A DNA stretch of 45,250 nt from a virus. The position numbers and the translations under genes were made by a program. The stretch spans positions 1 to 45,250 of the IMG/VR virus record IMGVR_UViG_3300010885_082206. One strand, written 5' to 3'. This document shows, one piece after another, positions 1 through 31,064 of this stretch. The notes under the pieces are model-generated. The model did no database searches and was not told the origin of the DNA. It saw nothing but the letters and a program-made list of their open reading frames with translations. How positions within the stretch are numbered: the stretch's first letter is position 1; each line of letters begins with the position of its first letter.

Positions 1-213
1 CAGCAGAATCAACAACGCCATCCAGACAAACAGACATACATCCAGGGGCGGCATGACATAGATCTCGGCCCGCATCATGCTCAGATAGGTGGGCACAAAG
101 GCCAGATGCAGCAACACCAGGGCACACCATTCCAAGAAGTTTGCGGTGCCCTGGCTAAAGTTACGACCGCAGTAGTTCACGAAGTCTTCCAACAATTGCT
201 GCGCTTTATCCAT
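1..213 (-). CDS. Small membrane protein, partial (3' end off the left edge)
   Basis: An open frame starts with ATG at 213 and runs off the left edge, giving at least 71 residues. The start MDKAQQLLED is followed by two hydrophobic stretches, at about residues 28-46 and 56-71, so it is probably an integral membrane protein with a short cytoplasmic N terminus. The start overlaps the 3' end of the SleB-type hydrolase by 8 nt, which suggests co-translation with it. I do not recognise the family. The pairing with a cell-wall hydrolase makes a lysis-related role conceivable, but that is only an inference from position. Confidence 0.6.
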   Translation of the reverse strand, partial: MDKAQQLLEDFVNYCGRNFSQGTANFLEWCALVLLHLAFVPTYLSMMRAEIYVMPPLDVCLFVWMALLILL

Positions 214-739
214 GATCCTCACCATAGAAAATATGACGTCCAATCTTTACCAGTCGGGGTTTGTGCCAGCCTGGCGTTACATAGTCAGCATGGTAGTACA
301 GGGCCTTGCCCAGGCTAGGCAAACGATAGCCCTCGAGCAACACCATCTTGGCTACATTCATGCTTTCAGTATAGTACTGCTCCACGGGTTTGCGTGCTCT
401 ATGGTTGCCCTCGCAGTACCAGCTAAACTGGCAGATGACTCGGGCATAGACTACGTTCTTTTGATACACCACACCGCAAACGCTGTTGGGGAATCGCCCC
501 GAATTCATTCTATTTATGGTGACCTGCGCCACGGCAACCTTGCCCTCGAAGGGTTCCGTGGCGGCCTCCCAATAGATGTTGTTGGCCAGACAGTTCAGCT
601 CCTGTTGCCGCTGAGCCGCACTGACGATCTCTTGGGGCTCTGGAACTCGTTGTTGTCTGAAATCCAGGGCCTGCATCATGAGATACAGGGCTAGAACAGC
701 AAAGGCTGCTCGGGTTGCTAGATGTACTAGGCGTACCAT
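206..739 (-). CDS. SleB-type cell-wall hydrolase
   Basis: This 177-residue protein has a hydrophobic N-terminal segment (about residues 8-24, a membrane anchor or signal), then a SleB/Hydrolase_2-type lytic domain (about 45-175). Visible signatures are the early ANNIYWEA block with the likely catalytic Glu59, the VAVAQVTINRM helix (68-78), and the C-terminal ALYYHADYVTPGW and IGRHIFY blocks (146-172). Family members cleave peptidoglycan glycan strands as lytic transglycosylases or amidases. In a phage this would act in the periplasm at lysis, or be carried for another wall-opening step. A second muralytic enzyme (GH19) lies at 4454-5080 and a putative holin at 1856-2140. Confidence 0.85.
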   Translation of the reverse strand: MVRLVHLATRAAFAVLALYLMMQALDFRQQRVPEPQEIVSAAQRQQELNCLANNIYWEAATEPFEGKVAVAQVTINRMNSGRFPNSVCGVVYQKNVVYARVICQFSWYCEGNHRARKPVEQYYTESMNVAKMVLLEGYRLPSLGKALYYHADYVTPGWHKPRLVKIGRHIFYGEDHG

Positions 740-1297: not shown

Positions 1298-1579
1298 ATG
1301 GAAGACATTCTGACCCTTATCACTGAACTAGGTATTCCTGTCAGTGCCGCTCTGCTCATGGGCTATGCGGTGTTCACCATGCTCAAGTTTATACTGCGGG
1401 GCGTTCTGGAAGAAATCCAGCAGCTTCGCACCATGATTACCGGACTCAACACCAGAGTTCGCACCATGACCGATGACGTTATCAAGATCGACGTTGCCAT
1501 CAGCCATCAGCTAGGGCTTCGGGCCGATGCTCGACGTCTGAGTCGCAGCGATGGCAAAAATTCGGCTCGCAAGGACTAG
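1298..1579 (+). CDS. Small membrane protein, paralogue A (TM plus coiled coil)
   Basis: A 93-residue protein with one N-terminal hydrophobic segment (about residues 12-36), then a heptad-rich amphipathic region (about 38-75) and a basic, arginine-rich tail. An AGGAGC Shine-Dalgarno-like sequence precedes the ATG. It is a tandem paralogue of the next gene. Both begin with M-E-x-I-x-L-I, keep a G-x-P-x-x-A-A-L-x-x-G-Y core, and follow it with a coiled-coil-like stretch. The general design (short exterior end, one membrane span, cytoplasmic or periplasmic helix) resembles YvrJ-like or holin-associated phage proteins, but I cannot assign a function. Confidence 0.75.
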   Translation: MEDILTLITELGIPVSAALLMGYAVFTMLKFILRGVLEEIQQLRTMITGLNTRVRTMTDDVIKIDVAISHQLGLRADARRLSRSDGKNSARKD

Positions 1580-1580
1580 C

Positions 1581-1859
1581 ATGGAAACTGTCATTGCTCT
1601 CATAGAAACCTATGGATTCCCCGCCGTGGCAGCCCTGGGCTTTGGCTACATGGTCTACGGCGTCTGGCGCTGGAGCACCGAGGAAGTACAGCCTGCCATA
1701 GAGGAAACCAATCAAGAACTCGTGGCGCTCATAGACCGTATTCGCATGCTGGACAACGATCTGATCCGTCTCACGGAAAAGGTCAATGTAGCCACGGAAC
1801 TACTGCAGCGTGCCGAGCTGGCTCTGAAGAAAAACAACAACAAGGGAGACCCCCAATGA
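1581..1859 (+). CDS. Small membrane protein, paralogue B (TM plus coiled coil)
   Basis: A 92-residue protein starting at the METVIALIETYG Met, one base after the stop of paralogue A. This start matches the start of paralogue A and avoids a long overlap. One membrane span (about residues 11-32) is followed by a long amphipathic helix (about 35-83) and a Lys/Asn-rich tail. The 3' end overlaps the holin-like gene by 4 nt (ATGA). The tandem duplication suggests that the two products form a hetero-oligomer or have diverged after duplication; that is inference. Confidence 0.78.
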   Translation: METVIALIETYGFPAVAALGFGYMVYGVWRWSTEEVQPAIEETNQELVALIDRIRMLDNDLIRLTEKVNVATELLQRAELALKKNNNKGDPQ

Positions 1860-2147: not shown

Positions 2148-2171
2148 ACGGACCCGCGCGAGCGGGTCCGT
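2148..2171. terminator. Bidirectional intrinsic terminator
   Basis: A perfect 10-bp stem (ACGGACCCGC pairing with GCGGGTCCGT) with a 4-nt loop sits 7 nt after the holin stop. Read on the minus strand it is followed by TTCTTTTGTTATT, a good U tract, so it should end the tmRNA transcript. Read on the plus strand it is followed by a weaker T-containing stretch and closes the three-gene operon. The two convergent transcripts meet here. Confidence 0.85.
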
Positions 2172-2174
2172 GGT

Positions 2175-2495
2175 GTTTCTGTTGCTAGGCCACCGGCCCC
2201 GAGCGATCAAGCGGCGAGCGCCAGATCCTCAGCATAAACGTCGTCATTGGCGTTTAAGGGTTTTGCTTCTCTGGCCGGGAGGTCCCAACCCTACGGCTTC
2301 GGCTTTGCCGTGCTGTCCATGTCCCTAGTCAATGTCCTGTCGAAACCTGGACACCCCCATCATATACACACTAATGGTTTGCCTGCGCTCTCATGTGATT
2401 TGAGCCGGTTTTATGCATTAGTGTGCATATGGTGGAGGTGGCGAGAATCGAACTCGCGTCCAAGACACCTTTCAGTCTACTTCATACAGCAATTC
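2175..2495 (-). ncRNA. ssrA: Circularly permuted (two-piece) tmRNA
   Basis: On the minus strand the 3' acceptor piece comes first. It has T-stem and loop GCGAG-TTCGATT-CTCGC (2457-2441), acceptor strand CACCTCC (2440-2434), discriminator A, and an encoded CCA (2432-2430). A 71-nt intervening segment follows, and then the 5' coding piece starts at 2358 with GGGGGTG, then GGTTTCGACAGG. The acceptor strands pair over 7 bp with a G3-U70 wobble, the alanine identity element. A resume codon GCC (2251-2249) opens the tag ANDDVYAEDLALAA and the stop is TGA (2209-2207). ACAGCA (coding piece) and TGCTGT (acceptor piece) can form helix P2, and AGGGTT/AACCCT a PK1-region stem. The intervening segment has a 14-bp stem. 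The outer ends are approximate. tmRNA with SmpB rescues stalled ribosomes and tags the nascent chain for proteolysis. Confidence 0.93.
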
Positions 2496-2692
2496 GTCGG
2501 AGGCAGAGTACGAACAAATCTACTCCAGGCCTCATCAAATCCCGAGTAATACAACACGGCTTCTTCGTTGTACCAGAGCCGGCGTGTATAGTCTCGAATT
2601 ATGGCCTCGAGATCAGCGTCATCGAAATACTTGAGATGACCCTTGACCAAGTAAAACATTTCATAGGCCAAGCGACGCTGGTTCTGATCCAT
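2477..2692 (-). CDS. Hypothetical protein overlapping the tmRNA acceptor piece
   Basis: A 71-residue protein starting MDQNQRRLAYEMFYLVKGH. It is mainly helical, acidic and aromatic in its first half, and ends in the unusual TNCCMK. I do not recognise it. A longer in-frame start at 2791 would overlap the Bfd-like gene much more, so the internal Met at 2692 was chosen. The last codons share bases with the 5' end of the tmRNA acceptor piece, so maturation of the RNA would cut the end of this mRNA. No strong Shine-Dalgarno site is visible. Confidence 0.5.
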   Translation of the reverse strand: MDQNQRRLAYEMFYLVKGHLKYFDDADLEAIIRDYTRRLWYNEEAVLYYSGFDEAWSRFVRTLPPTNCCMK

Positions 2693-2831
2693 GGTTATCT
2701 TGTTCAGTTTCACATCGATACTGTTGCTGGCACTGACCGCAGATCTGATCGGGCTCCAATATGCGAGCTCGAAGCTCGTCCTCGGAGTCATACTCTGAAC
2801 TGCGAATGTCCCGGCACATGCACACTATCAT
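2661..2831 (-). CDS. Bfd-like [2Fe-2S] protein
   Basis: A 56-residue protein with the cysteine pattern of bacterioferritin-associated ferredoxin: MIVCMCRDI at the N terminus (Cys4, Cys6) and ICGQCQQQ (Cys34, Cys37). The C-x-C, about 28 residues, then C-G-x-C arrangement is the Bfd-like [2Fe-2S] binding fold. Cellular Bfd binds bacterioferritin and passes electrons that release stored iron. The domain also occurs as a module in other redox proteins. Here it stands alone under its own strong promoter, just upstream of the tmRNA. It could tap host iron stores, for instance for the phage's iron enzymes (NrdB, 2OG oxygenase), which is inference. Confidence 0.72.
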   Translation of the reverse strand: MIVCMCRDIRSSEYDSEDELRARILEPDQICGQCQQQYRCETEQDNHGSEPASLGL

Positions 2832-3762: not shown

Positions 3763-4461
3763 CTAAGGGTGTGTCAATGCAGAGTCGATGCTTTTTTCAT
3801 AGCGGTCCCGATATTCAAGCAGGCCCCGCACCCAGCGGTTGCGTCGCTCGAAAAACACCTGAGGTGCATGATCCTCCACGGCAATCAACACCACAAGATT
3901 AGGTACAGGTATGCCCGTGAGTTCTTCGTACATGATGGCATAGGCTGTGCACTGCATGAAGTAGTTGTCAATCCAGTCGACCTGCTTGGGACGACTGCTG
4001 GTCTTGAAGTCGATGACACTGAGCATACCACGATATTCGGCTATGCAGTCCACGGTGCCAGCCAGACGCAGATGATGACTGTACAGAGGCGTTTCCAGGG
4101 CGTGTACATTATCGATGTCCTCGAGCACCGACCGGAACGTCTGAAAGTATTCCTGAGACATGAGATCGGCGCCAAAGTCCGGCGGCTGATTGCTCAGGTA
4201 CTGTTCGGTCAGAGCATGCAGTCGAGTGCCACGCCGAGCTGCTCGACCGCTGATGCGAGCGGCTTCCTCACTGCCCACGCGCCGGCGCCAGGCCTGCAGT
4301 GCCTCGGCGCCGTGCGGTTTAAGTATGGTGGTCACACTGGGATATCGTTCGCCCGACGGCGTCGCGTAGACTCGACTGCCATCCTCGGCAGTTTCGCGTT
4401 GTAGAAAGGGCAGGGTCAGCCCCTGCCCACCAACCCCTACATGATGAAATTGCTTATGCAC
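3763..4461 (-). CDS. PD-(D/E)XK superfamily nuclease (RecB/Cas4-like)
   Basis: A 232-residue protein with the motifs of the RecB-like nuclease branch. GTRLHALTEQYL (about residues 78-89) is the N-terminal His/Glu helix, GTVDCIAEY (about 134-142) contains the catalytic Asp, and VIDFKTSSRPKQ (about 148-159) holds the D-x-K core. QCTAYAIMYEELTG (170-183) matches the following Q-x-x-x-Y helix. Relatives in T4-like cyanophages are predicted exonucleases of DNA repair or end processing. It overlaps the GH19 gene by 8 nt, so the two are expressed together although their functions differ. Confidence 0.82.
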   Translation of the reverse strand: MHKQFHHVGVGGQGLTLPFLQRETAEDGSRVYATPSGERYPSVTTILKPHGAEALQAWRRRVGSEEAARISGRAARRGTRLHALTEQYLSNQPPDFGADLMSQEYFQTFRSVLEDIDNVHALETPLYSHHLRLAGTVDCIAEYRGMLSVIDFKTSSRPKQVDWIDNYFMQCTAYAIMYEELTGIPVPNLVVLIAVEDHAPQVFFERRNRWVRGLLEYRDRYEKSIDSALTHP

Positions 4462-5080
4462 CGAGCACCTTTAGGGCCTGTTCATAGTGTTGTTTGCGCT
4501 CCTCTAGCCCAAGGGTGCCGCCGTTGATGCGTTTGGTCAGTGCCACCATGTCGCCGGCGTCGGCCAGGGCGTTGAGTTTGTTGGTGTTCCAGAACCAGCA
4601 GGCACTTTCAATGGCACCCTTAAGTGTCTCAGTATAGGCTACAGTTTCATCCAGAGTGCGGTTGATGCTGTGAGCAAACTTCGTGTAGTTTTCCCGACCA
4701 GTAAGCTGAATGGCTCCGCGCCCCCGAAACTTGAATCCATCACCCGAGGCCTCGGGTCCGTTGCCCATGCGGTCAGCATAGATTCGGTTGGCAATCTTTT
4801 CAGGATTGCGAGCCAAGGGCTGGGCCGCGGCTGCTGTGGGAAACCGCTTGGGGAAGACCTTGGCCAGGCCCTCGGCACTGTAGTTGAGATTTTCTCGGAG
4901 CACGGTAAAGTCTACGCTTTCGTGACCACACTGGGCCAGAAAAGCCGAGACCCGCTTCACGGTGTTGATCTCATAGCGAGGCAGTACCTCGCTCAGAGCC
5001 GCAAAAAGCTCATCTGCATTCTTGTTGCGTTTTACGCAGCTCGATAGTTTTTCTCGGGTAAACGTAAACTCAAAGCTCAT
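4454..5080 (-). CDS. GH19 chitinase-like endolysin
   Basis: A 208-residue single-domain GH19 protein. The catalytic acid is probably Glu54 in AQCGHES (49-55), and the second Glu is in LRENLNYSAEGL (61-72). FRGRGAIQLTGRENY (118-132) and SACWFW (159-164) are family hallmarks, and ITKR-like and NGG motifs follow. Phage GH19 enzymes cleave the glycan strands of peptidoglycan. There is no signal peptide, so export would need the holin. It sits in the middle of the glycan gene string and overlaps its neighbours by 8 and 11 nt. Together with the SleB-type enzyme it gives this phage two muralytic proteins. Confidence 0.9.
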   Translation of the reverse strand: MSFEFTFTREKLSSCVKRNKNADELFAALSEVLPRYEINTVKRVSAFLAQCGHESVDFTVLRENLNYSAEGLAKVFPKRFPTAAAAQPLARNPEKIANRIYADRMGNGPEASGDGFKFRGRGAIQLTGRENYTKFAHSINRTLDETVAYTETLKGAIESACWFWNTNKLNALADAGDMVALTKRINGGTLGLEERKQHYEQALKVLGA

Positions 5081-5903
5081 AGCCCAGATCCTTTAGGTAC
5101 AGGTTGCTGTAATGGTTGATCAGATGCGGGGTCTGATTGTGGCGGTCCCACTGATGAATCACCGCGGGCAGACGACCATAGACCGAGACTCGACCGTCCT
5201 CCAGCACTCGAAGGTCATTGGGCGGAGTCAGACACAGGGTGCCCACACCGTCGCCGTTTTCACACTGCACATGCGGCAGAAGATTTTTATGGAAGATGTA
5301 GTTGTAGGGGCCTTGTTCGTCTGGAATGCCACCCAGCTTCTGCATCTTGTCAACGTCACGCTGATTCATGAGTGTAACAATGTACTGAATGATTTCTTCC
5401 TGCCCGCCCAAGGTGGTGCCGCTGCAAAGAATGCGACAATCTGCCAACTCTGCCGCTACGTCTTCGCCATAGTTGCTGGTCAGAACATATTTATTGAAGC
5501 GTTCGCTACAGTTGCTGCGAGGGTCTTCCTGAAACACAAACAGGTCGGACTGGTTGGCTTGTGCTACGATTTGGTCAAAGACGTTGCCCTGAAATGCCAC
5601 GTCGCGCACATCGGTCAGAAACACTCGACCATACTGGCCTCGCTCTTCCAGCAGAATGTCCAGGTACTTGAAGTAGCGCGTATTGTGTATGGCACTGGGT
5701 ATGAAGTAGCCCGCGCTGAAGAAGCGTACGTCGACGCCGCTGTCCAGGAGATAGTTGAGTTTGTCCTGGGCAACGTCAGGTTCCACCAGCATGATCATTT
5801 CCGTGTTGTCTGCGCAGTAGCGCTTCCAGCTTTCCACGAAAATGGCCACAAGGTCAACTTTATACCCCCAGCCTGTACAGAGTATAAGATTAGGTTTAGT
5901 CAT
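5070..5903 (-). CDS. Glycosyltransferase-like protein (GT-A type)
   Basis: A 277-residue protein. After an N-terminal Rossmann-like strand (NLILCTGWGYKVDLVAIFVE) it shows FKYLDILLEERGQYGRVFLTDVRDVAFQGN (79-108), in which the DVRD segment resembles a metal- and nucleotide-sugar-binding DxD. The downstream HQWDRH is a possible metal ligand site. The same architecture occurs in predicted glycosyltransferases of marine T4-like phages. The donor sugar and acceptor cannot be read from the sequence, though GDP sugars are plausible because gmd is in the same transcript. It overlaps the next gene by 8 nt. Confidence 0.65.
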   Translation of the reverse strand: MTKPNLILCTGWGYKVDLVAIFVESWKRYCADNTEMIMLVEPDVAQDKLNYLLDSGVDVRFFSAGYFIPSAIHNTRYFKYLDILLEERGQYGRVFLTDVRDVAFQGNVFDQIVAQANQSDLFVFQEDPRSNCSERFNKYVLTSNYGEDVAAELADCRILCSGTTLGGQEEIIQYIVTLMNQRDVDKMQKLGGIPDEQGPYNYIFHKNLLPHVQCENGDGVGTLCLTPPNDLRVLEDGRVSVYGRLPAVIHQWDRHNQTPHLINHYSNLYLKDLGYEL

Positions 5904-6657
5904 AGATCATGGTTCCTGTGGGGGCAATGGTGCCCATGCAATGAGTATGTTCCAGTTCCAGGCTTTGGTCTGGACCAATATGTTTGAACAACAGATGTTC
6001 CATGTCAATGTAGTTGGTCTTGGTGATTTCCAGCGCGTCTTGGCCCATGACATCCCAGATTTCACGCAGATAGTCCAGCTTGTTGACAGGAAAACTCCAG
6101 AGTCGGCTGCTGTAGCTGTATTCAGTGCCCACCAACTCCTGAGCATTTTCAATCCAGCTCTTGTCACGTTGTCGAAACACAAACCGGTCCTGTGCTGCCG
6201 GCGTCGCATAGATCGCAGTATCAAACAACGGGCTAAGTTGATAACGCCCCGAGATCTTAAAGATGCGGTCTACTTCCATGGCTGGGCGAAGCTCCTCTTG
6301 AGTCGCCAGACTTCGCAGAGCACTGCCCATGATGGTGATTTCCGCCACGGTTTTGACCAGGCCCGTGGTGCCGCCCATTTCGTTGCGATTGGGTACTCGG
6401 TTCAGGAAGTTATTGTGCAGATGTTCGATCTGATTGTTGCTGGTCATGTCCAGGAACACGTGACAGCGTTTGCGTAGCGCCTCCAGATGTGGAGTCAGCT
6501 CCAGGGGTTTGCCGGCCTCGACCAACACCAAGATGGCATCGGGATAGAAGCGCAAGATGCTGTTGATGGTTTCGTGCGTCTGTAAGATGCGCGCGCCAGG
6601 GTCATAGACACCAACATTGGTGTTGATGGCGCTGCTAATGATCCAGGTTGTTTTCAT
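5896..6657 (-). CDS. Probable glycan-modification protein (WavE or glycosyltransferase-like)
   Basis: A 253-residue protein beginning with the Rossmann-like MKTTWIISSAINTNVGVYDP, with QTHETINSILRFYPDAILVLVEAG next, which is reminiscent of the N-terminal half of WavE-like and GT-A sugar enzymes. FKISGRYQLSP (about residues 133-143) is a conserved-looking block of that kind. No clear DxD was found. It is coupled to the upstream gene by an ATGA overlap and overlaps the downstream glycosyltransferase by 8 nt. A sugar-transfer role is inferred mainly from context. Confidence 0.5.
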   Translation of the reverse strand: MKTTWIISSAINTNVGVYDPGARILQTHETINSILRFYPDAILVLVEAGKPLELTPHLEALRKRCHVFLDMTSNNQIEHLHNNFLNRVPNRNEMGGTTGLVKTVAEITIMGSALRSLATQEELRPAMEVDRIFKISGRYQLSPLFDTAIYATPAAQDRFVFRQRDKSWIENAQELVGTEYSYSSRLWSFPVNKLDYLREIWDVMGQDALEITKTNYIDMEHLLFKHIGPDQSLELEHTHCMGTIAPTGTMIYD

Positions 6658-7559
6658 ACTGTGATGTACTCCGTACCATGAAGTCGTTGTGTAATCAGGC
6701 GGTGTACGATGTTGGCGCAGGCCACATCGTCAATACTATCTGCAAAGGCGTGCCGAGCTGGATATAGGCTCCCGCCATTGAGGCAATCTGTCAGTCTAGT
6801 GCTAAAGCTTAGAAAAGTCAATCGGGGATTCAGAAGATTTTCCCTGTTGCAGCAGTAACTAAACGGGCCGCTGTTCTTGCCCACAATGATGCGCGCGCCT
6901 CGACTCATGTAGGCGATGAGATTGATGTCGCTGTCCAGGTTTCCCAGGAGATCGCTGGTGTAGCGAACATTGGGCAGATCCAAACCCTCGAGCCGCTGAG
7001 TGCAAACCAGGGTATGCTCGGGCAGGCGCTGGGCCAGGTCGGCTACTATGTTGCGCATGTCACCCATGCGGCTCTGACCACTGTTGGCTGGGCCATTACA
7101 GAACAGGCTCCAGCCCTGATCTCCGAGCTCACGCATTGCCGCTTGTGCCTGTGTGAGATTGTCGATGCGAGTCCAGTCCATGTCGGGCAGATAGCGGTCT
7201 CGATCCTCGCTGAACTTTAGGCCCAGATGCTGATAGTATCGACGCCAGATTTCATGCAGGCGCTGATAGTTGATGTGCTCGCCATAGTTGAACAAGGCTC
7301 CTTGCCAACAGCCCACCCAGGTGTTGATGTACATGGTCTGCTTGTCTGAACTTTCGGCTACGCGCACCTGGTGGTCCAGCGCAGTCATGTCCTCCAGTGG
7401 CATGTACTGCAGGGGCAGATCTGCTACAATGCTGGGATGGTTACGATGCGCGTAGTGAAACTCAATCTCGGGCAACTGACTGACGATGTCGCGTATGTAG
7501 CCCTTGGGCACAAAACAATCACCATTATGATACTGATTAAAGAAGACAATGCGCTTCAT
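6654..7559 (-). CDS. Probable glycosyltransferase (GT-B / heptosyltransferase-like)
   Basis: A 301-residue protein. The N terminus MKRIVFFNQYHNGDCFVPKGYIRDIV resembles the first strand and loop of GT9-type enzymes, and the C-terminal domain has ARIIVGKNSGPFSYCC (about residues 222-237), similar to the G-x-x-S-G-P nucleotide-sugar loop of that group. Cys-rich positions around 216-240 are unusual. It lies between the C-methyltransferase and another sugar gene with ATGA overlaps on both sides. Related proteins are found in cyanophage glycan clusters, but the acceptor is unknown. Confidence 0.55.
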   Translation of the reverse strand: MKRIVFFNQYHNGDCFVPKGYIRDIVSQLPEIEFHYAHRNHPSIVADLPLQYMPLEDMTALDHQVRVAESSDKQTMYINTWVGCWQGALFNYGEHINYQRLHEIWRRYYQHLGLKFSEDRDRYLPDMDWTRIDNLTQAQAAMRELGDQGWSLFCNGPANSGQSRMGDMRNIVADLAQRLPEHTLVCTQRLEGLDLPNVRYTSDLLGNLDSDINLIAYMSRGARIIVGKNSGPFSYCCNRENLLNPRLTFLSFSTRLTDCLNGGSLYPARHAFADSIDDVACANIVHRLITQRLHGTEYITV

Positions 7560-8788
7560 GATGGTGCAGCGATGACTTCAAATTCTGGGCAGGGCACAAT
7601 AAAGCTGCCGCCCCGTGCCAGATAGTCGGCTTCACGTTTCACAAACTCGTCGATGAAGTGCCAGGGCAGCACCAGCACATAGTCAGGCTGAGCCTTGCGA
7701 AACTCGTCTTCGCTTACGATGGGAATCTCGGTGCCCACAGTTTTCTTGCCCCACTTGTAGGGACTTCGCTCAGCAATGGCCACGATGTCTTCATTGGTGA
7801 GCCCAAAGTACTGCAACAGAGTATTGCCCTTGGTGCTGGCTCCATAGCCCCAGACGGTCTTGCCCTGAGCCCGAGCGTCTCGAATAAACTTCACGGTGCG
7901 GTCTCGCAGTTTCTCCAGATCCCGTCCAAACTCACGCCAGACGCTGGGGTTACGAATATCGCAATGGATGTTCTCCATGAGCAGCAGAGCATCGGTGCGA
8001 TAGCCGCAGACGTGCCGCATCTGTTCGGTAGCAAAGGCGCGGGGGTTGCTATCGTTGTGCATCAAATAGATGCGAATACTACCGCCATTGGTATCGTTCA
8101 GCGTGGCATCCACGATGCGCATGTTGTGTTGGTCAAACAGTTCTTCGATGCTGGCCAGGCTGTGATAGTAGACATGCTCATGACAGATGTTGTCAAACGC
8201 CATTTGCTGCACCATGAGCGGAGTATAGCTCATCTGCAGCACCAGAACTCCATCCTTGTCCAGCACGTCAACAAGGTCATCGATGAAAGAATGCGGGTTG
8301 TCCAGATCATAGAACATGGCGATGCAGGTAATGACCTTGGCACGGGCATCGCCGGCTGCTTTGCGCCAGGCCTCTTTGCTGAAGTAGTCCTGCACAATGG
8401 TGCCGTGCTTGGAACTTTCTACGACATAGCTGTCGTCGCAGGGGTCGATACCTACGCGATGAATGCCCTCGGGTACGAAACTCAGCAGGGTGCCGTCGTT
8501 GCAGGCAATGTCTAGCCAATGATCGCCACGCTTGAGTTCGATACGGCTCTGTACTTCGTCTACAATACCCTGCAGTTCGCGCCGCATAGTGTTATTGGTG
8601 CCGCTGCGATACCAGTACTGACCCCACATGCTCTCAGGCGGAGCAACCTCACCCAGTCGAACTGCACCAATACTTTCGTCCAGATACAGGTCCAGGCTGT
8701 AGCGATTGCGACCTTCGCTGCTGGCACCGGCCTCCAAGAAGTCACTGACGTAGTGTGCGCCTAACTCCAAAAGTTTTTTCTGTGTCAT
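7556..8788 (-). CDS. Sugar C-methyltransferase-like protein lacking the N-terminal zinc cysteines
   Basis: A 410-residue protein with the three-part layout of NDP-hexose C-3 methyltransferases. An N-terminal domain (about 1-75) holds GQYWYRSGTNNTMRRELQ. A SAM-binding Rossmann domain follows (about 80-200, DHWLDIACNDGTLLSFVP and VGIDPC). The C-terminal domain has VWGYGASTKGNTLLQYFGL (about 325-343), a family signature. The N-terminal domain usually binds zinc through four Cys, and none of these is present here. The second ATG (8788) has the better spacing to AGGAG. In the pathway it would methylate a 4-keto sugar, perhaps the product of the dehydratase encoded upstream. Confidence 0.82.
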   Translation of the reverse strand: MTQKKLLELGAHYVSDFLEAGASSEGRNRYSLDLYLDESIGAVRLGEVAPPESMWGQYWYRSGTNNTMRRELQGIVDEVQSRIELKRGDHWLDIACNDGTLLSFVPEGIHRVGIDPCDDSYVVESSKHGTIVQDYFSKEAWRKAAGDARAKVITCIAMFYDLDNPHSFIDDLVDVLDKDGVLVLQMSYTPLMVQQMAFDNICHEHVYYHSLASIEELFDQHNMRIVDATLNDTNGGSIRIYLMHNDSNPRAFATEQMRHVCGYRTDALLLMENIHCDIRNPSVWREFGRDLEKLRDRTVKFIRDARAQGKTVWGYGASTKGNTLLQYFGLTNEDIVAIAERSPYKWGKKTVGTEIPIVSEDEFRKAQPDYVLVLPWHFIDEFVKREADYLARGGSFIVPCPEFEVIAAPS

Positions 8789-8796
8789 CATAACTC

Positions 8797-9180
8797 CTAG
8801 TCGTAAATCTTTTCTTCAACAATGCTGCTATGGTAGGCTTCGTTGGCAATGCGCTTGAGTTCGGCTCGGCGATCATTGGCACGGGGGATCTCTTGCGCCG
8901 TGTTCATGTAGACTTCGCCAAAATCCTGATTGCGAATGCAGCCGCGAATAACGTCCTCCAGATCCCAGAGCTGACGGTTGACGCGGGTCAGTTCGGCCAC
9001 GATGCCTTCAAACATAGGATGTCCGCCCAGGTTAACACCATCGGCGCGCTGTTGCAGAAGCTGTAGTTCACGGTCGACGTTGCTGCGCTGTTCGTCGGTA
9101 CGAGCAAAACGATGTTTGAGTTGCAGTATGGTGATCTTGTCTATGAGCTCACCGACACTAACTGGTACTTCTACAATCAT
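8797..9180 (-). CDS. DUF6165 family protein
   Basis: A 127-residue protein with the family pattern: [19 protein letters not shown] at the N terminus, [24 protein letters not shown], the [15 protein letters not shown] block, and VEEKIYD at the end. The fold looks all-helical. The family's biochemical function is unknown to me, but its members commonly sit beside nucleotide-sugar and glycosyltransferase genes. Here it is between gmd (ATGA overlap) and the C-methyltransferase, consistent with a role in the same sugar pathway. Confidence 0.75.
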
Positions 9181-10217
9181 GGTAGCCTCGAACTTTCGAA
9201 TCGAGCCAGCTCCAGATCATGGTTCACCATGTCAGCCACCAGCCCCTCAAAACTAAACTCTGGGCGCCAGCCCAGTTCCTGTCGCGCTCGACTACTGTCG
9301 CCCAGCAACAGATCCACTTCCGCGGGTCGATAGAATGCTGGATCTATGGTGATCACGGTTCTGCCAGTATAAAGGTCCCGCCCCTGTTCGTCGATACCTG
9401 ACCCTGACCAGGTCAGTTCCATGCCCAGGAAATCGCCGGCTAGGTTACAGAAATCACGCACGCTGTGCGTTTCATTCATGCTCACGACATAGTCTCGGGC
9501 TTCATCCTGCTGCAGCATGAGATGCATGGCTTGTACATAGTCTCGGGCATGACCCCAGTCTCGCTGTGCGTCCAGGTTACCCAGGCGTATGGGTGGAGCG
9601 GTGGGGTCTTGAGCAATGCGCGACAGGCCTCGGGTAATCTTGCGTGTAACGAATCCCTCGCCACGTCGCGGACTCTCATGATTGAACAGTATGCCCGCGC
9701 ATGCATAGATGCCGTAGCTCTCACGATAGTTGGTAGTGATCCAGTGTGCGAACAACTTGCTGCAGCCATAGGGACTGCGAGGATAGAAGGGCGTGGTTTC
9801 GCGCTGTGGGGTCTCCTGCACCCTACCAAAGAGCTCGCTGGTGCTAGCCTGGTAGAACCGAATTTTCTTGGTGAGACCAAGATCGCGTATGGTGTCCAGA
9901 ATGCGCAGAGCGCCCAGGCCGTCTACATCGGCCGTGTACTCTGGTAACTCAAAGCTGACCTGTACATGACTCTGTGCTGCCAGATTGTAGATTTCGTCGG
10001 GCTGGATGCGGCCTATGATGTTGCGGAGATTGGTGCTGTCGGTAAGGTCGCCATAGTGCAGCTGCACCTGGTCTTTGACATTGCGCAGATTGGGATGGTC
10101 CACAAAGCTGCTGTTGCGGCGTATGAGTCCGTGGACTTCGTAGCCCAGCCCCAGCAGCAGTTCTGCCAGATAGCTGCCATCCTGGCCACTGATGCCAGTA
10201 ATCAATGCTCGTTTCAT
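9177..10217 (-). CDS. gmd: GDP-mannose 4,6-dehydratase
   Basis: A 346-residue extended SDR. The [15 protein letters not shown] nucleotide-binding loop, LIRRNSS (the NADP 2'-phosphate region), [13 protein letters not shown], the catalytic [11 protein letters not shown], and [10 protein letters not shown] (Tyr and Lys) followed by [16 protein letters not shown] are all characteristic of GMD. The start MKRALITG at 10217 was chosen because the family begins there and not at the in-frame TTG or ATG upstream. It converts GDP-D-mannose to GDP-4-keto-6-deoxy-D-mannose, the precursor of fucose, rhamnose, perosamine and other sugars. It is the first gene after the terminator at 10246 and leads a unit of glycan genes. 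No fucose synthase follows directly. Confidence 0.95.
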
Positions 10218-10245
10218 GCTGTATCCCATCAAGGTCTATGACAAA

Positions 10246-25100: not shown

Positions 25101-25263
25101 GGACGGGCTCCCAACGAGGCGGGTTATCGGGGCAGGTTTGTTCCTTGAAGTTGGTCTTGGCTGGCATGAAACAACCACAGATAGCGCAGGTCTTTACGAT
25201 GTTATTGTAGTGTTCGCAACTGCGGCAAATCTCCATGCGCACCCGACTGTATTCAGTAAGCAT
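25048..25263 (-). CDS. Cysteine-rich zinc-ribbon protein
   Basis: A 71-residue protein, MLTEYSRVRMEICRSCEHYN with CAICGCFMPAKTNF and CPDNPPRW: CxxC, CxxC and more Cys, which suggests one or two zinc sites. Similar DUF6171-like ribbons occur in phages. The start (TGATG overlap with the RmlB-like stop) shows coupling. It overlaps the deaminase start by up to 53 nt. Confidence 0.62.
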   Translation of the reverse strand: MLTEYSRVRMEICRSCEHYNNIVKTCAICGCFMPAKTNFKEQTCPDNPPRWEPVHESNYAPSSSGCCGQIR

Positions 25264-26216
25264 CACCAGATCCAATTTTTCTGATAGTACTGTACGATCC
25301 CTGGCATCTCAGCGTAAAAGTTTCGTCGGGTCTCCCAGCCCAGGGCCCGCAACTTGCCATCATCGATGCTGTAGCGAACGTCCTGGCCGGCTCGTTGGTA
25401 GCTGAAATCCACGTAGTCTTCCAGGGTGTCTTCGTCATACAGACCCAGATTTTCCAGTATGTTGCGCACCACATCTAGGTTACGAATTTCAAAGTTGCCG
25501 GCAATGTTGTAGATTTCATTGACCTGCCCATGTTCGATGATGTGCATGACAGCCTCGGCCGTGTCCTCGACGTGCAACCAGGTTCGTACCGGAGTACCGC
25601 CCTGATGCAGGGGAACCTTGCGACCCAGCGTCAGATACTTGACAGTTTTAGGGATGAGTTTTTCTACGTATTGTCCGCGGCCATAATTGTTGGTGGGGCG
25701 AACAATGATCCAGGGCACACGATGTGTTCGCCCCCAGGCCATGATCAGCTGGTCAGCCGCGGCCTTGGTGGCACTGTAGGGATTGCTGGGACACAGTAGC
25801 TGTTGTTCAGTAAAGCTGCCGGTTTCGATATCGCCATAGACTTCGTCGGTGCTGAAGTGCAGCAACACCGGCATCTTGTACTGTCCCTTGCTTTCAATGA
25901 GTTTGAGCAGATGATGCACACCGTTGATATTGCTGTGCACGAACACGTCACTGCTAGCAATGCTGTTGTCTACATGAGTTTCGGCCGCACAGTTGATGAC
26001 GTAGTCGCAGTCCACGAGCCGTTCCAGCTTGTTGATGTCCACGAGTTCAAACTGAAACCGGTCTCTGTACTGTTCTAGTTCGTCCAGCAGATTGAAGTTG
26101 GCAGCATAGGTGCAGCTGTCCACCCCTCGCACATACCAGCCAGCCTCCAGACAACGCTTGGCCACATGGAACCCAATGAAGCCCAGACACCCAGTAACAT
26201 AGACAATACGTTTCAC
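25263..26216 (-). CDS. dTDP-glucose 4,6-dehydratase-like SDR
   Basis: A 317-residue extended SDR with GTG start (GTGA overlap). GCLGFIGFHVAKRCLEAG is the NAD-binding loop, CAAETHVDNSI is the ribose/active-site strand, FSTDEVYG carries the Thr-Asp-Glu triad, and NPYSATKAAADQL the Tyr-Lys pair, as in RmlB. RmlB-type enzymes make the 4-keto-6-deoxy intermediate. With the RfbH-like enzyme at 28175 the physiological substrate may be CDP-glucose instead of dTDP-glucose. Last but one gene of the coupled sugar operon. Confidence 0.9.
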   Translation of the reverse strand: MKRIVYVTGCLGFIGFHVAKRCLEAGWYVRGVDSCTYAANFNLLDELEQYRDRFQFELVDINKLERLVDCDYVINCAAETHVDNSIASSDVFVHSNINGVHHLLKLIESKGQYKMPVLLHFSTDEVYGDIETGSFTEQQLLCPSNPYSATKAAADQLIMAWGRTHRVPWIIVRPTNNYGRGQYVEKLIPKTVKYLTLGRKVPLHQGGTPVRTWLHVEDTAEAVMHIIEHGQVNEIYNIAGNFEIRNLDVVRNILENLGLYDEDTLEDYVDFSYQRAGQDVRYSIDDGKLRALGWETRRNFYAEMPGIVQYYQKNWIW

Positions 26217-27010
26217 TGATACTCCTCCATGCCTGCTAACAGGCCCCGTAGATGAAGATTAAGTCCGGCCAGGCGCAGTCCGCTGCCGGTATAGTCCGGT
26301 GCACGCACTGGCTCTACACTGATGCGAGTCTTGATGCCGTGAACGCGAGTAAAGATTTCGGCCAGATCACTGAGCAAAAACTTGTTGGCATACACAGCAT
26401 TGACGTCCTGATAGCGCGGACTTTCGGTACAACAAAAGTATTCAATGACTCGACTCAGATCCTGCATGTCCATGTAGTCAAAGAAACAATCTCGCAGCAC
26501 TAGCTCGGGCTGGCCATTGCGTAGCCTCCGAAACAGTTTATAGCCGGGCTCGCTGCCATGTAATATGCCCCAGAGTCGAACTGTATAGAAGTTGGGCATG
26601 GTGCTGCAGATGCGGCTAATGGTGTTACGACTCAGACCGTATCCATCCAGAGGCCGCCGATGCCAGATTGCAGTTTCAGCTGGCTCCAGGGCAGTCCGGG
26701 TTCGGTCGAATTCAGCGCCACTGCCCAGATTGATGTAGCGACCAAATTCGTGGTGTGCTGCCAGCACATTGGTAAACAGGTTCAGATTGTGGCTGGCTAT
26801 GTCGGGACGTGGCGCCAACTCGTATTCGGGGTGCTTGGCCGCGCCAATGACGACATCGAACTTTTCGCGCCGTAGATACTGCTGAGTGGCGCCGGCATCC
26901 AATAGGTCAACCTGCTGTCTGGTAACAGCCACAGTCTCGCCCAGAATACGCAGACTCTGCACCAAATAGCTGCCAATATAGCCATTGCCGCCCAAGACGC
27001 CGATCTTCAT
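26213..27010 (-). CDS. SDR reductase/epimerase with YxxxR
   Basis: A 265-residue SDR: GGNGYIGSYLVQSLRILG (nucleotide loop), INLGSGAEFD (strand with Ser), and YGLSRNTISR in place of the usual Y-x-x-x-K, so Arg replaces the catalytic Lys. It may reduce the C-4 keto group of the branched sugar. ATGA overlaps at both ends. Confidence 0.72.
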   Translation of the reverse strand: MKIGVLGGNGYIGSYLVQSLRILGETVAVTRQQVDLLDAGATQQYLRREKFDVVIGAAKHPEYELAPRPDIASHNLNLFTNVLAAHHEFGRYINLGSGAEFDRTRTALEPAETAIWHRRPLDGYGLSRNTISRICSTMPNFYTVRLWGILHGSEPGYKLFRRLRNGQPELVLRDCFFDYMDMQDLSRVIEYFCCTESPRYQDVNAVYANKFLLSDLAEIFTRVHGIKTRISVEPVRAPDYTGSGLRLAGLNLHLRGLLAGMEEYQ

Positions 27011-27543
27011 CGCCCGTAGTCCGGTAATTCCACCAGTATGCTGCTGCCTTGGCGTTGCATGGCGGCCTGATAGGCCGGCAGTATGCTTTCTGGTGTGGTT
27101 AGTTCCACTACCTCAATGGTGCGGCACATGCTGCGAAATGCCTCGCTGAAGTTGCCCTTGTGCTGGTCCTGCGGGTCCACGGGTCGTTCCGAGCCCACGG
27201 CCACGCGAATAATCACTCGGGGGCAATAACCACCGTCACTCATGAGCGGAAGTTTGTCTAGATGGTTCACGACCTGGTCCGCGGCTACCAGGAGAAAGTT
27301 CCAGCGTGGTACGGTACAGATCGGAGTCAGACCCTGCAGCGCCAGACCCGTGCAGTACCCGACCTGGAAGTTCTCGGCCACGGGAAACTCCTGCTTGAGA
27401 TGCGTTGGTACCTCGGTCAGACTGTCGTACAGTCCAGTACCGGCATACTCCACGGCCTGACCAATGAACCGGATTCGTGGCTGCGTAGCCACCCAGTTCA
27501 TGGTCTGCTTGAGTTCATGATTGTAGCGTTGGTTTTCTGTCAA
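27007..27543 (-). CDS. TPP-enzyme beta-type subunit (pyrimidine-binding domain)
   Basis: A 178-residue protein with TTG start overlapping the alpha-type stop (TTGA). IRFIGQAVEYAGTGLYD (with the FIGQ...E region), VAENFQVGYCTGLALQGLTPI and GGYCPRVIIRVAVGS are typical for the pyrimidine-binding (Pyr) domain of 2-oxoacid dehydrogenase E1-beta or transketolase C-terminal halves. There is no third C-terminal transketolase domain. It should pair with the next subunit to form a TPP-dependent acyl or ketol transfer enzyme. Confidence 0.78.
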   Translation of the reverse strand: MTENQRYNHELKQTMNWVATQPRIRFIGQAVEYAGTGLYDSLTEVPTHLKQEFPVAENFQVGYCTGLALQGLTPICTVPRWNFLLVAADQVVNHLDKLPLMSDGGYCPRVIIRVAVGSERPVDPQDQHKGNFSEAFRSMCRTIEVVELTTPESILPAYQAAMQRQGSSILVELPDYGR

Positions 27544-28175
27544 AATTGCACCCTCACTCCAGCACCGGCATGCGGATACTTATCATTGCTGTATTCATAG
27601 TAGAGCATCTTGGGAGCGGTCCAGTATCGCACACCCTGGCCCTTGTCCTGCAGCGTGGCGCCACGGAGATACCAGGGTTCGGTGCGAGCCCAGATTTCGT
27701 CCGTGGGCGTAAGCACACTCAGATGATTGTTCTCCACGATGAAGGTGATGCGAAGATCATGATTCACAGCATATTTGTAGGCTTCGTGAAAAGCTCCGGT
27801 TTCCGCACTCATGTCACCCAGGAAACACCAGACGTGCGATCCCAGCTCAGCGGCTGCAGCCAGTCCCGTGGCAATGCTGGGAATTCCGCCCACGATGCTG
27901 CTGCATACAATGCGATACTCGGGCAGGTTCATGACCATGCTCTTGCCTGCGCGAATTCGCTCCTCCAGAACCTCGGGTGGTACTCCCTTGAGCAGGCACT
28001 GATAGTGATTGCGCCAGGTACAGCAAACCCAGTCTCGTTGACGATCCACGCTCTGAAATATATGCTGCATCATGGCTTCGTTGCCATGATACAGATGTAT
28101 GGGCGCTCGGATCTCGGCCCGATTAAATGCGTCGCCAATGCGGGTTTCAAAGTCCCGTAGTTGTTGAGTATTCAT
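27540..28175 (-). CDS. TPP-enzyme alpha-type subunit (PP-binding domain)
   Basis: A 211-residue protein. IVGGIPSIATGLAAAAELG (about residues 93-111) and FLGDMSAETGAFHEAYKYAV (about 116-135) with VENNHLSV give the GDx(n)N TPP-diphosphate motif of E1-alpha/transketolase N-terminal domains. The split with the beta-type gene next door is like PDH or acetoin dehydrogenase E1. Here the surrounding genes suggest sugar branching, as in YerE-type pathways. Start is ATG 28175 in a TGATG overlap. Confidence 0.8.
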   Translation of the reverse strand: MNTQQLRDFETRIGDAFNRAEIRAPIHLYHGNEAMMQHIFQSVDRQRDWVCCTWRNHYQCLLKGVPPEVLEERIRAGKSMVMNLPEYRIVCSSIVGGIPSIATGLAAAAELGSHVWCFLGDMSAETGAFHEAYKYAVNHDLRITFIVENNHLSVLTPTDEIWARTEPWYLRGATLQDKGQGVRYWTAPKMLYYEYSNDKYPHAGAGVRVQF

Positions 28176-29530
28176 CACAGGTTGGCCGTGTAGGTTTGCA
28201 TGAATTCCTGCACTAGCGTTTGCATGAATTCCTGCACTAGCTCGCCAATGTAGTCCAGTTGCGGATCTGTGATGACCGGGCTGGTGCCCAGGAAGAAGGT
28301 GTGCGTAGTGACGTGTGATGCCACGGGGAAGCGTTCCCGAGCGTTCTCGGCCCAGGGTAGATGGTCATAGGCCGGCTGCAGCATGATGTTGCCTGCGAAA
28401 TAGGGCCGAGTCTGTACACCGTGACTTTCCAACCAATCCACGATGTCGCTGCGCTTAAAGGGCGTGCCAGTACGAAGCGTCAGGGCAAAGGCAAACCAAT
28501 CGGGGTCGCTGTTGGGCTGTCGCACCGGTAGCTGGAAGAATTGCTCATAGGGTTTGAAGATCTGATAGAGCCGACTAAAGTTGTGCCGCCGGCGACGACC
28601 AATCTCCTCGAGTTTGTCCAGCTGTTGCAGGCCCATGCTGGCCTGCAGTTCCATGGGCTTGAGGTTGTAGCCAATCTCATCGTACACGTACTTGTGGTCA
28701 AAGATTTCGTTGGGCATGCTGGGAATCCAGTTACTGAATCTTCGCTTGCAGGTACCACACTTGAGTTTGTTGGCTTCGGGACCAACACAGTAGCAGCCTC
28801 GGCCCCATTCACGGAAACTGCGAACAATGTCTTCAGTGACCTTGTCATTGCAGGCCACGAAGCCGCCCTCGCCCATGGTCATGTGATGCGCCGGATAGAA
28901 ACTGCAGCTTGCCATGACACCAAAACTGCCCAGGGGCTGGCCAGCATAGGTGGATCCCAGGGCATCGCAACAGTCTTCCAGTAGGATAAGATTGTGGCGG
29001 TTCACCAGCTCCATGAGTCGTTCCATGTTGGGTGGATTGCCTAGCACGTGCGCAAAGGTAATGACTCTGATGTTAGGGTCTGCAGCCAGCGCCGCCTCGA
29101 CCTGGTCCAGATCCAGGTTCAGAGTCTCGGGTTCAATGTCTACAAATACAGGTTCGAACCCAACCTGCAGCAGAGGATTTACCGTGGTGGGGAATCCAGC
29201 CACGGGAGTCAGCACGCGGGTACCAGCTGGTAGATTGTGGCCTCGTTTGCTGCGAAGTGCGTTCATCATCAACAGGTTGGCACTGCTGCCGCTGTTGGTG
29301 AGTACGCCGTGCCGCTTGCCCAGCAGGGCCGGAAACTTTTGTTCGAACCGAAGACAGTCCTTGCCCATGACCAACCAGCCTTTGAGCAGGGTCTCGGCTG
29401 CGGCCACGATTTCAGCATCATCAAAATACGGGCCAGCATAGTGTATGGTATCGCCGGGCTGCCAATGTCGTTGCTGTTGCTGCTCCCGAACGTATTCGCC
29501 GACATGCTCTAGTAATTGCTTCAATTCCAT
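28175..29530 (-). CDS. RfbH-like PLP/PMP dehydrase (CDP-4-keto-6-deoxyhexose-3-dehydrase, E1)
   Basis: A 451-residue fold-type I aminotransferase-like enzyme. SFYPAHHMTMGEGG (210-223) has His in place of the Schiff-base Lys, the hallmark of RfbH/ColD/E1, so it works with PMP as a dehydrase, not a transaminase. GCYCVG with LKCGTC (Cys246, 248, 258, 261) fits the [2Fe-2S] cysteines of E1. LLEDCCDALG (183-192) holds the PMP-binding Asp. E1 removes the C-3 hydroxyl of CDP-4-keto-6-deoxyglucose with reductase E3. I see no separate E3 gene in the operon. The C terminus carries an 8-residue duplication (LVQEFMQT x2). Confidence 0.9.
   Translation of the reverse strand: MELKQLLEHVGEYVREQQQQRHWQPGDTIHYAGPYFDDAEIVAAAETLLKGWLVMGKDCLRFEQKFPALLGKRHGVLTNSGSSANLLMMNALRSKRGHNLPAGTRVLTPVAGFPTTVNPLLQVGFEPVFVDIEPETLNLDLDQVEAALAADPNIRVITFAHVLGNPPNMERLMELVNRHNLILLEDCCDALGSTYAGQPLGSFGVMASCSFYPAHHMTMGEGGFVACNDKVTEDIVRSFREWGRGCYCVGPEANKLKCGTCKRRFSNWIPSMPNEIFDHKYVYDEIGYNLKPMELQASMGLQQLDKLEEIGRRRRHNFSRLYQIFKPYEQFFQLPVRQPNSDPDWFAFALTLRTGTPFKRSDIVDWLESHGVQTRPYFAGNIMLQPAYDHLPWAENARERFPVASHVTTHTFFLGTSPVITDPQLDYIGELVQEFMQTLVQEFMQTYTANL
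28194..28241 (-). repeat. 24-bp perfect tandem duplication in the RfbH-like gene
   Basis: Two adjacent identical 24-nt units (28194-28217 and 28218-28241) encode LVQEFMQT twice in frame at the extreme C terminus. A perfect duplication at nucleotide level suggests it is recent. It does not disrupt the frame. Confidence 0.9.
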
Positions 29531-29541
29531 GCTGACTCCGA

Positions 29542-30210
29542 TTAGTAAATGATGTGTGGGCGATACTCTTTGATTAGGTCTAGTCGTTCCCTGGGCTGTG
29601 TACCGGGCCAGTGCACCAGCCAATCGCCGGACTCCCATTGGCCTCGATAGCCATGTACATCGACGTTGTCCGTGTAGTTCCAGGGCGGGACTCGATACAT
29701 GCGATATTCGTAGCTGTTCATGAAATGCTGGGGCTGCAGATCAATAATATCTTCGTAGCGGTCAAAACTGTCCAGCATGTACTGCTGTTCCTTGAACTGG
29801 TGTTGAGCATACTTGGGCATGTTGTCCATGATGTCCTGTAACCAGGCTCGACTCTGTTCACTGTTGCGCACCAGCATGCTGTCACAATTGATAGCAAAGT
29901 TGAAGTCGCCGCTCATGATGATGTGCGCGTCAGGGTCAGCCTGCGCAATCTTGTCCTCGACTCGAGTCTGAAAGTTCATGATCAAACTATCGCTACCGGT
30001 CCACCAGGTCCAGCTAATTTCGGGATTGGCCTCGAACAGATCCAGCATGAACTGGATCTTTTCAAACCCAGGCTCAAATCCATAGAAGTCATCGGTCTTG
30101 GCCCAGGTAGCATAACCATGCTGTTCGGCATACTGCACCTTGTTGTTGTCCCAGGTTTCCTGCGCCAGCTCTTGATACCGCTCGTTGTGCATTGAGGTCA
30201 AAACAATCAT
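29542..30210 (-). CDS. Glycosyltransferase GT34-like
   Basis: A 222-residue protein: YQELAQETWDNNKVQYAEQHGYATW, FEKIQFMLDLFEANPEISWTWWTGSDSLIMN (about residues 49-79) and GDWLVHWPGTQPRERL (about 195-210). This resembles the MNN10/GMA12 family (GT34) with its W-x-D-x-D-like strand; here TGSDSLIMN may be the variant. It would transfer a hexose from a nucleotide sugar. Overlaps the next gene by 4 nt; 11 nt separate it from the RfbH-like gene. Confidence 0.7.
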   Translation of the reverse strand: MIVLTSMHNERYQELAQETWDNNKVQYAEQHGYATWAKTDDFYGFEPGFEKIQFMLDLFEANPEISWTWWTGSDSLIMNFQTRVEDKIAQADPDAHIIMSGDFNFAINCDSMLVRNSEQSRAWLQDIMDNMPKYAQHQFKEQQYMLDSFDRYEDIIDLQPQHFMNSYEYRMYRVPPWNYTDNVDVHGYRGQWESGDWLVHWPGTQPRERLDLIKEYRPHIIY

Positions 30211-31055
30211 GCTATGGCTTCCTTGAGTTCATCGATTTTATTCAACACCTGCTCACCAAAACGTTCCCAGATTGCAGTATCTGCGACGTCGTTGTAGTCG
30301 TATTCATGAAACACGCTGTCAGGTATCTGTGCGCCGGGCGCGTCGGGAGCACGATCCGCGGTGCTGCCACGAGCCTGTTTGACGGTCTTGAAATACTCCC
30401 AGCTCTTGCACTGATAGTGATTGATGCGCATGGGCGCATGCACTGGCTCTACGCTGGCGTTGTGACCGCAGTGCGGAGCAATCAGTCGTCCCTGCAGATC
30501 AAAGGTTCCAAACTCCGTGGTGAACACGTGCGGGTTAGTACCCCGAGCCCAGCCACCCTGACCACGACCTCGCACTATACTCTTCATGTGATGATTCGTG
30601 GAGATGCCCAGATCTCCACGTCTTGTATAGCTGGGCAGGACCAGCTCTGGATCCTGTACATGGCCAGAGCTCCCAAAAGCGCACCAATACACACCCAAAG
30701 CACTGAGTTTCTGATTGCGGTAAAGATCCAGGACTTCACGAATGTTGCCATGTTGTGTTGGAAAGTAGAACTCATCCATGTCAGCAAAAATCAACCAATC
30801 CACCGTAGGCAGCACCTCGGTCAAAGCATGCTGCAACATGGGGTAGTGTACATTGTAACCATCTCGATGATGAATGTCAATGGCCACTCCGGCCTGTTGT
30901 AGCCGCCGATAGATCTCAGCAGTGTCATCGGTGCTCATGTGGTTGTAGATTACGAACCTATCCACCCCCTGCACCAGATAGTAGGCCATCCACTCTAGTA
31001 TATATTTGGCTTCATTGCGTTGCATGCTGGCAACGCAGACGTCATCACGATGCAT
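30207..31055 (-). CDS. Glycosyltransferase GT92/GT2-like
   Basis: A 282-residue protein: CVASMQRNEAKYILEWMAYYL and GVDRFVIYNHMSTDDT, then LIFADMDEFYFPT (DxDEF) near residue 92, and C-terminal INHYQCKSWEYFKTVKQARGS. This series is typical of Glyco_transf_92 or DUF23-type enzymes, with ATG 31055 after AGGAG. ATGA overlap with the GT34-like gene. Acceptor unknown. Confidence 0.78.
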   Translation of the reverse strand: MHRDDVCVASMQRNEAKYILEWMAYYLVQGVDRFVIYNHMSTDDTAEIYRRLQQAGVAIDIHHRDGYNVHYPMLQHALTEVLPTVDWLIFADMDEFYFPTQHGNIREVLDLYRNQKLSALGVYWCAFGSSGHVQDPELVLPSYTRRGDLGISTNHHMKSIVRGRGQGGWARGTNPHVFTTEFGTFDLQGRLIAPHCGHNASVEPVHAPMRINHYQCKSWEYFKTVKQARGSTADRAPDAPGAQIPDSVFHEYDYNDVADTAIWERFGEQVLNKIDELKEAIA

Positions 31056-31064
31056 TATCAACTC

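Follow-up and report, generated by a model that had tools for sequence, protein, structure and literature searches.

The tmRNAs of Bxz1-type mycobacteriophages and of Bacillus phage G are of the standard, unpermuted form. These one-piece RNAs resemble the locus presented here in coming from phage-borne ssrA genes (PMC4131195). Two-piece tmRNAs have been published for the pelagimyophage Mosig EXVC030M and the OM43 phage Melnitz, the Melnitz gene having been grouped with alphaproteobacterial ones, and 53 of 133 phage tmRNA structures were two-piece (PMC9004378); the phage two-piece tmRNA is therefore already a known kind. Permuted genes are covered by a merged model, RF04321 (tmRNA_permuted), described in PMC11915505.

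Here we present a circularly permuted tmRNA gene (ssrA) on the minus strand of a 45,250-base linear virus record (hereafter the window), at approximately 2495-2148, identified with Rfam covariance models and ARAGORN. The window represents part of a T4-like phage genome and carries genes for a gp61-type primase, a T4 RNase H, a ligase and a class I ribonucleotide reductase, as well as ThyX, PhoH and a PD-(D/E)XK exonuclease. RF04321 matched at 2491-2207 with 117.1 bits (cut-off 47, E 2.5e-22) and over its full length (model positions 1-213 of 213), and ARAGORN called a tmRNA* at the same gene, in agreement with RF04321. RF01850 (beta_tmRNA) reached 84.5 bits, just above its cut-off of 84, and covers 2552-2145, including the terminator. 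The initial annotation, which gave no strand, had read a permuted two-piece-type tmRNA in a phage gene cluster at 2175-2495 and had proposed an Infernal search with the permuted models as a check; the RF04321 and ARAGORN results uphold that reading, and as the scores of RF04321 and RF01850 lie above their cut-offs the search does not refute it. The proposed interval holds most of the gene, but the gene extends slightly further (model match to 2552-2145, terminator to 2148). Weak matches of miRNA families at 2352-2440 fall on the intervening hairpin, far under their own cut-offs, and were rejected. The features of the locus are as follows.

2148-2495, minus strand: permuted tmRNA gene (ssrA), approximate precursor, acceptor piece through terminator (RF04321, RF01850, ARAGORN)
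2430-2495, minus strand: 3′ (acceptor) piece, including one P2 strand (sequence, covariance-model alignment, T-stem and P2 covariation in relatives)
2457-2441, minus strand: T arm GCGAG-TTCGATT-CTCGC with the canonical T-loop TTCGATT (sequence)
2440-2430, minus strand: acceptor 3′ strand CACCTCC and encoded ACCA (sequence)
2359-2429, minus strand: intervening segment, 71 nt, expected to be excised; ends TGAT before G1 (helix against shuffles)
2429-2416 / 2376-2363, minus strand: 14-bp terminal helix closing the intervening segment (shuffles, relatives)
2207-2358, minus strand: 5′ (coding) piece, G1 through the stop of the tag (covariance-model alignment, fold)
2358-2352, minus strand: 5′ acceptor strand GGGGGTG (sequence)
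2207-2251, minus strand: tag frame GCC...TGA, encoding ANDDVYAEDLALAA (ARAGORN, sequence)
2148-2171, minus strand: intrinsic terminator with a 10-bp stem, ACGGACCCGC-TCGC-GCGGGTCCGT followed by TCTTTTGTT (sequence)
2477-2791, minus strand: 104-aa ORF directly upstream of the tmRNA
3763-4461, minus strand: PD-(D/E)XK exonuclease (phrog_298), the conserved upstream neighbour in relatives
206-739, minus strand: cell-wall hydrolase (Hydrolase_2), which usually follows the tmRNA in relatives

The acceptor and T-arm piece is encoded ahead of the 5′ piece: the acceptor strand at 2440-2430 is followed by 71 nt and then by G1 at 2358. The T arm, the encoded CCA preceding GGGGGTG, and G3-U70 can all be read in the sequence, as initially described. 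The acceptor stem is paired at 7/7 positions and the T-stem at 5/5, the discriminator is A, and the G-U pair at position 3-70 provides the alanine identity element. The coding piece runs from GGGGGTG through the GGUUUCGAC element, a P2 strand and a hairpin/pseudoknot region to the tag. The tag frame opens at the resume codon GCC, with UUAAAC directly before it and A at -4, and ends in a hydrophobic AA terminus and a TGA stop; the initial annotation had noted both this frame (2251-2207) and a terminator (2171-2148).

The fold exceeds chance expectation. The folding energy of the 351-nt RNA lies 4.5 standard deviations below that of dinucleotide shuffles (z -4.5). Pairing was then compared in 75 unique phage relatives from among the matches listed, selected on a sequence motif and not on pairing. 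In the T-stem it reaches 100% (77% after shuffling), with compensatory pairs of 10 types; in the first P2 helix it reaches 91% (70% after shuffling), with compensatory pairs of 14 types. The 14 pairs of the intervening-segment helix in the window were reached by 0 of 2000 shuffles, and 74% of 89 relatives (among the matches listed) score 8 or more for this helix, against 2.7% of shuffles. G3-U70 is found in 100 of 101 phage relatives, again among the matches listed.

The last codons of the ORF at 2477-2791 overlap the acceptor piece, which makes the tmRNA the last element of a minus-strand gene series; searches of Pfam and PHROG gave no match for this ORF. A promoter-like TTGACA-17-TACAAT lies at 2867-2839, in a region whose promoter count equals the shuffle mean. 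The terminator at 2171-2148 also ends the convergent plus-strand genes at 1298-2140. Near this convergent terminator, two overlapping phrog_18771 genes form a tandem duplication (1298-1859, plus strand). Elsewhere, at 5070-10232 and 25263-33046 on the minus strand, this T4-like phage carries a large sugar/polysaccharide gene block with GDP-mannose dehydratase, epimerases, a DegT aminotransferase, a methyltransferase and glycosyltransferases.

The type of the RNA differs from that suggested for it at first. The canonical T-loop and the GGUUUCGAC element of the window are signatures of the tRNA-like domain of beta-permuted and one-piece genes: both occur in 4/4 permuted beta host genes, and one-piece host genes have the T-loop in 29/29 and GGUUUCGAC in 27/29 cases. 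Among 114 alpha host genes, the T-loop was found in none, GGUUUCGAC in 2 and the alpha element in 102; alpha tags are almost all ANDN and none is ANDD. The alphaproteobacterial two-piece tmRNA (RF01849, Caulobacter type) thus shares with the window the permuted order and the two pieces, but lacks the canonical T-loop, nearly always lacks GGUUUCGAC, and carries ANDN tags. RF01849 is not the best clan model for the window, in which the alpha T-loop, the AGGAUCGAC element and the ANDN tag are all absent. Judged by its T-loop, GGUUUCGAC and ANDD tag, the window RNA would not be of the alphaproteobacterial type, and the hint at an alphaproteobacterial host drawn from its tag finds no support. Within its clan, RF01850 is the best model for the window, as it is for those phages of our set with a match to a tmRNA model of this clan at all. 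The betaproteobacterial two-piece tmRNA that it describes has the canonical T-loop, GGUUUCGAC and permuted order in common with the window, but bacterial genes score 169-296 bits (84.5 in the window), their intervening segment spans 24-42 nt (71 in the window), and the window tag is 4 residues longer. In an 84-column tree, which is weak, the window falls near the genes of Stenotrophomonas, Xanthomonas and Alcaligenes phages (89/92); AU tests reject none of the alpha (p 0.22), beta (0.30) and one-piece (0.66) placements.

A plain blastn search with the gene matched no phage or plasmid record at E 1e-5; only pattern scans and related viral copies led to relatives. Viral contigs were scanned with two patterns, one for the T-arm/acceptor and one for the ANDDVY tag, so that the resulting counts are lower bounds. 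Tags starting ANDDVY occur in at least 118 viral contigs, the window included; the six codons take at least 15 synonymous DNA forms across these contigs, and at least 35 different complete tags are present, nearly all ending in AA. Together with the published two-piece structures, these numbers contradict the earlier statement that phage-borne tmRNAs are rare. They also bear on whether the phage RNA might act as a decoy or inhibitor that damps host trans-translation by taking SmpB or AlaRS from the host tmRNA. A form consisting of the tRNA-like domain only is reported to inhibit tmRNA (PMC4131195, PMC11915505), such a role has been proposed for the tag-less form of phage DS6A, and smpB was not found in the present record. 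However, a decoy would not need a conserved tag, stop and degron, whereas the tag frame, stop, resume context and AA-ending degron are conserved through synonymous changes in at least 118 contigs, and we regard this explanation as improbable.

The gene also has a conserved address. Among the matches listed, 72 of the 80 contigs with both genes have the permuted tmRNA in the orientation of the exonuclease and at most 2.5 kb downstream of it, a sample that is not dereplicated and was mostly gathered through the tmRNA patterns. The exonucleases of these contigs are mostly only 36-60% identical to that of the window, and a cell-wall hydrolase gene often comes next after the tmRNA. The order of exonuclease then tmRNA recurs in the isolate Mosig (SAR11 host). 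Conservation of this order despite divergent exonucleases, and its presence in Mosig, indicate that the tmRNA has been kept by phages over long times. The nearest relative is collinear with the window, with protein identity of up to 80%, and has its tmRNA in the same region but with the tag ANDEQFALAA in place of ANDDVYAEDLALAA; the tag thus evolves more quickly than the region around it. The gene is missing from some relatives: it is present in 3 of 19 viral loci fetched by the exonuclease alone, and no tmRNA was found in phage C48C1. In one related contig (L270, IMGVR_UViG_3300044724_005133), an abiF RNA (RF03085, 54.3 bits, cut-off 37) lies at 1458-1495, directly upstream of the permuted tmRNA, which may connect the tmRNA locus with a defence-associated RNA.

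Among cultured phages, RF04321 scored above its cut-off in the Stenotrophomonas phages Moby, Marzo and DLP_6, Alcaligenes phage QDWS595, Xanthomonas phage X1, Pseudomonas phage SM1, Acinetobacter phage BUCT628, Achromobacter phage JWDelta and Tunturiibacter phage Tunturi_5. The permuted tmRNAs of these nine phages are mostly unannotated, and their proteobacterial host genera are expected to use one-piece tmRNA. Permuted tmRNAs that score above the RF04321 cut-off and are not annotated as such lie in MN095772.1 (68083-68349), KU245542.1 (54071-54370), MZ593728.1 (39452-39666), OK149171.2 (55063-55316), KU682439.2 (102838-103059), OQ427096.1 (121009-121337), KF787094.1 (19736-20120) and PP885688.1 (157899-158195); the Moby annotation has a hypothetical protein (CPT_Moby_106) spanning the tmRNA. 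The Stenotrophomonas Menderavirus phages Moby and Marzo, together with DLP_6, share the permuted form and are the nearest isolate sequences in the weak tree, but in Moby and Marzo the tmRNA sits in a tRNA cluster before nrdA and not after the exonuclease; the tags are AANDDSYTVRIAA in Moby and Marzo and ANDDSFAPMAIAA in DLP_6. Mosig and Melnitz resemble the window in being T4-like phages with the permuted form, and the Mosig gene likewise lies downstream of a PD-(D/E)XK exonuclease. By contrast, the Mosig tag is GEDNFALAA (14 residues in the window), and gp33 and thyX come after the Mosig tmRNA gene; the window RNA differs from those of both phages in being of the beta/one-piece type and in that the Rfam model search found no glutamine riboswitch in the window.

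No tag starting ANDD was seen among 116 permuted genes from a random Pseudomonadota draw. In 84,980 species-level genomes, the phage-type ANDDVY tag with its upstream context matched six times; three matches are tmRNAs, all one-piece (Methylococcus, Thiomargarita), and none is permuted. This pattern requires TAAAYGC ahead of the tag, a feature of just 14 of the 130 loci sampled (mostly alpha); it is tuned to the phage context, and the result therefore means that the phage lineage was not found there, with ANDDVY tags in other contexts possible. The 14-aa pattern ANDD-Y--D-A-AA found none in 299 Pseudomonadota genomes, which ties the 14-aa tag to no host group; a fixed-length, badly spaced tag pattern gave 2 matches in 398 genomes. 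Within Burkholderiales, 5 of 150 genomes have a match above the permuted cut-off.

These comparisons weigh on a second alternative, that the gene is a recently captured copy of a host tmRNA, a recombination leftover with no phage-specific role. Phages do acquire host genes, and one-piece tmRNAs occur in some viral loci of our set, where they may derive from ssrA attachment sites; one such locus is a contig with ANDDNYGSDFAIAA (L120), which we take to be a xanthomonad-like tag. Capture is hard to reconcile with a neighbourhood shared by Mosig and many divergent phages, or with the lack of any permuted match to the phage-type ANDDVY tag and context in the genomes searched, and we consider it very improbable. 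That the gene is a decaying relic, its structure persisting but no longer processed or used, is hardly credible: its score of 117 bits does fall under most bacterial permuted genes (about 120-165), but the acceptor stem, T-stem, CCA, G3-U70, tag and stop, and terminator are all intact.

We therefore consider it very probable that the locus is a genuine permuted phage ssrA gene lending extra tmRNA for ribosome rescue through host factors. Neither smpB nor sspB was found in the record, which is a fragment, and PF01668 (smpB) had no match in the window and 14 related contigs, possibly all fragments; the absence of both genes from the record suggests that the phage tmRNA depends on the host. Most likely, as far as sequence can tell, the phage tmRNA would supplement rescue during infection through host SmpB, AlaRS and ClpXP. 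The transcript would come from the end of the minus-strand gene series and stop at the hairpin at 2171-2148, and the acceptor and coding pieces would pair on folding. By analogy with the permuted family, host tRNA-processing enzymes would excise the 71-nt segment to give a two-piece tmRNA, which host AlaRS would charge through G3-U70. Host SmpB would deliver it to ribosomes stalled on broken mRNAs, translation would resume at GCC and append (A)ANDDVYAEDLALAA, and the tag would act as a ClpXP degron, destroying the unfinished protein. The phage may benefit from ribosomes kept free and amino acids recycled while host and phage nucleases break mRNAs, and may plausibly swap or supplement the host's tag.

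With the tmRNA-borne alanine, the window tag reads AANDxxY + AEDL + ALAA. In PMC8512704, AANDENY was the part bound by SspB and ALAA the part bound by ClpX. That study ranked AANDENYSENYALAA, in which four residues separate the two, with the most effective ClpXP degrons whether or not SspB was present; its degradation was no worse than that of the natural tag, and was superior when SspB was absent. The window tag has the layout of this synthetic degron (AANDxxY, four residues, ALAA), and the phage tag may gain from the same spacing. A broader reading is possible but doubtful: phages may own a long-lived pool of permuted tmRNAs, independent of the form used by their hosts and with its own degron family (ANDDVY, a variable tail and xAA), that also works in one-piece bacteria and may be the source of the sporadic beta permuted genes.

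What this analysis seems to add is a conserved address for the gene, a prediction from degron spacing, an ANDDVY family that spans many contigs, and unannotated genes in cultured phages that infect laboratory hosts; no papers on these were found in a literature search of incomplete coverage. The window adds a well-formed example to the phage two-piece tmRNAs; in T4-like phages these have a conserved address after the PD-(D/E)XK exonuclease, which speaks for selection and against accident. As permuted tmRNAs occur in cultured phages of common laboratory hosts, the phage's gain is testable with existing strains, and the spacing of the 14-aa tag, being that of a synthetic degron efficient with ClpXP, yields a direct prediction.
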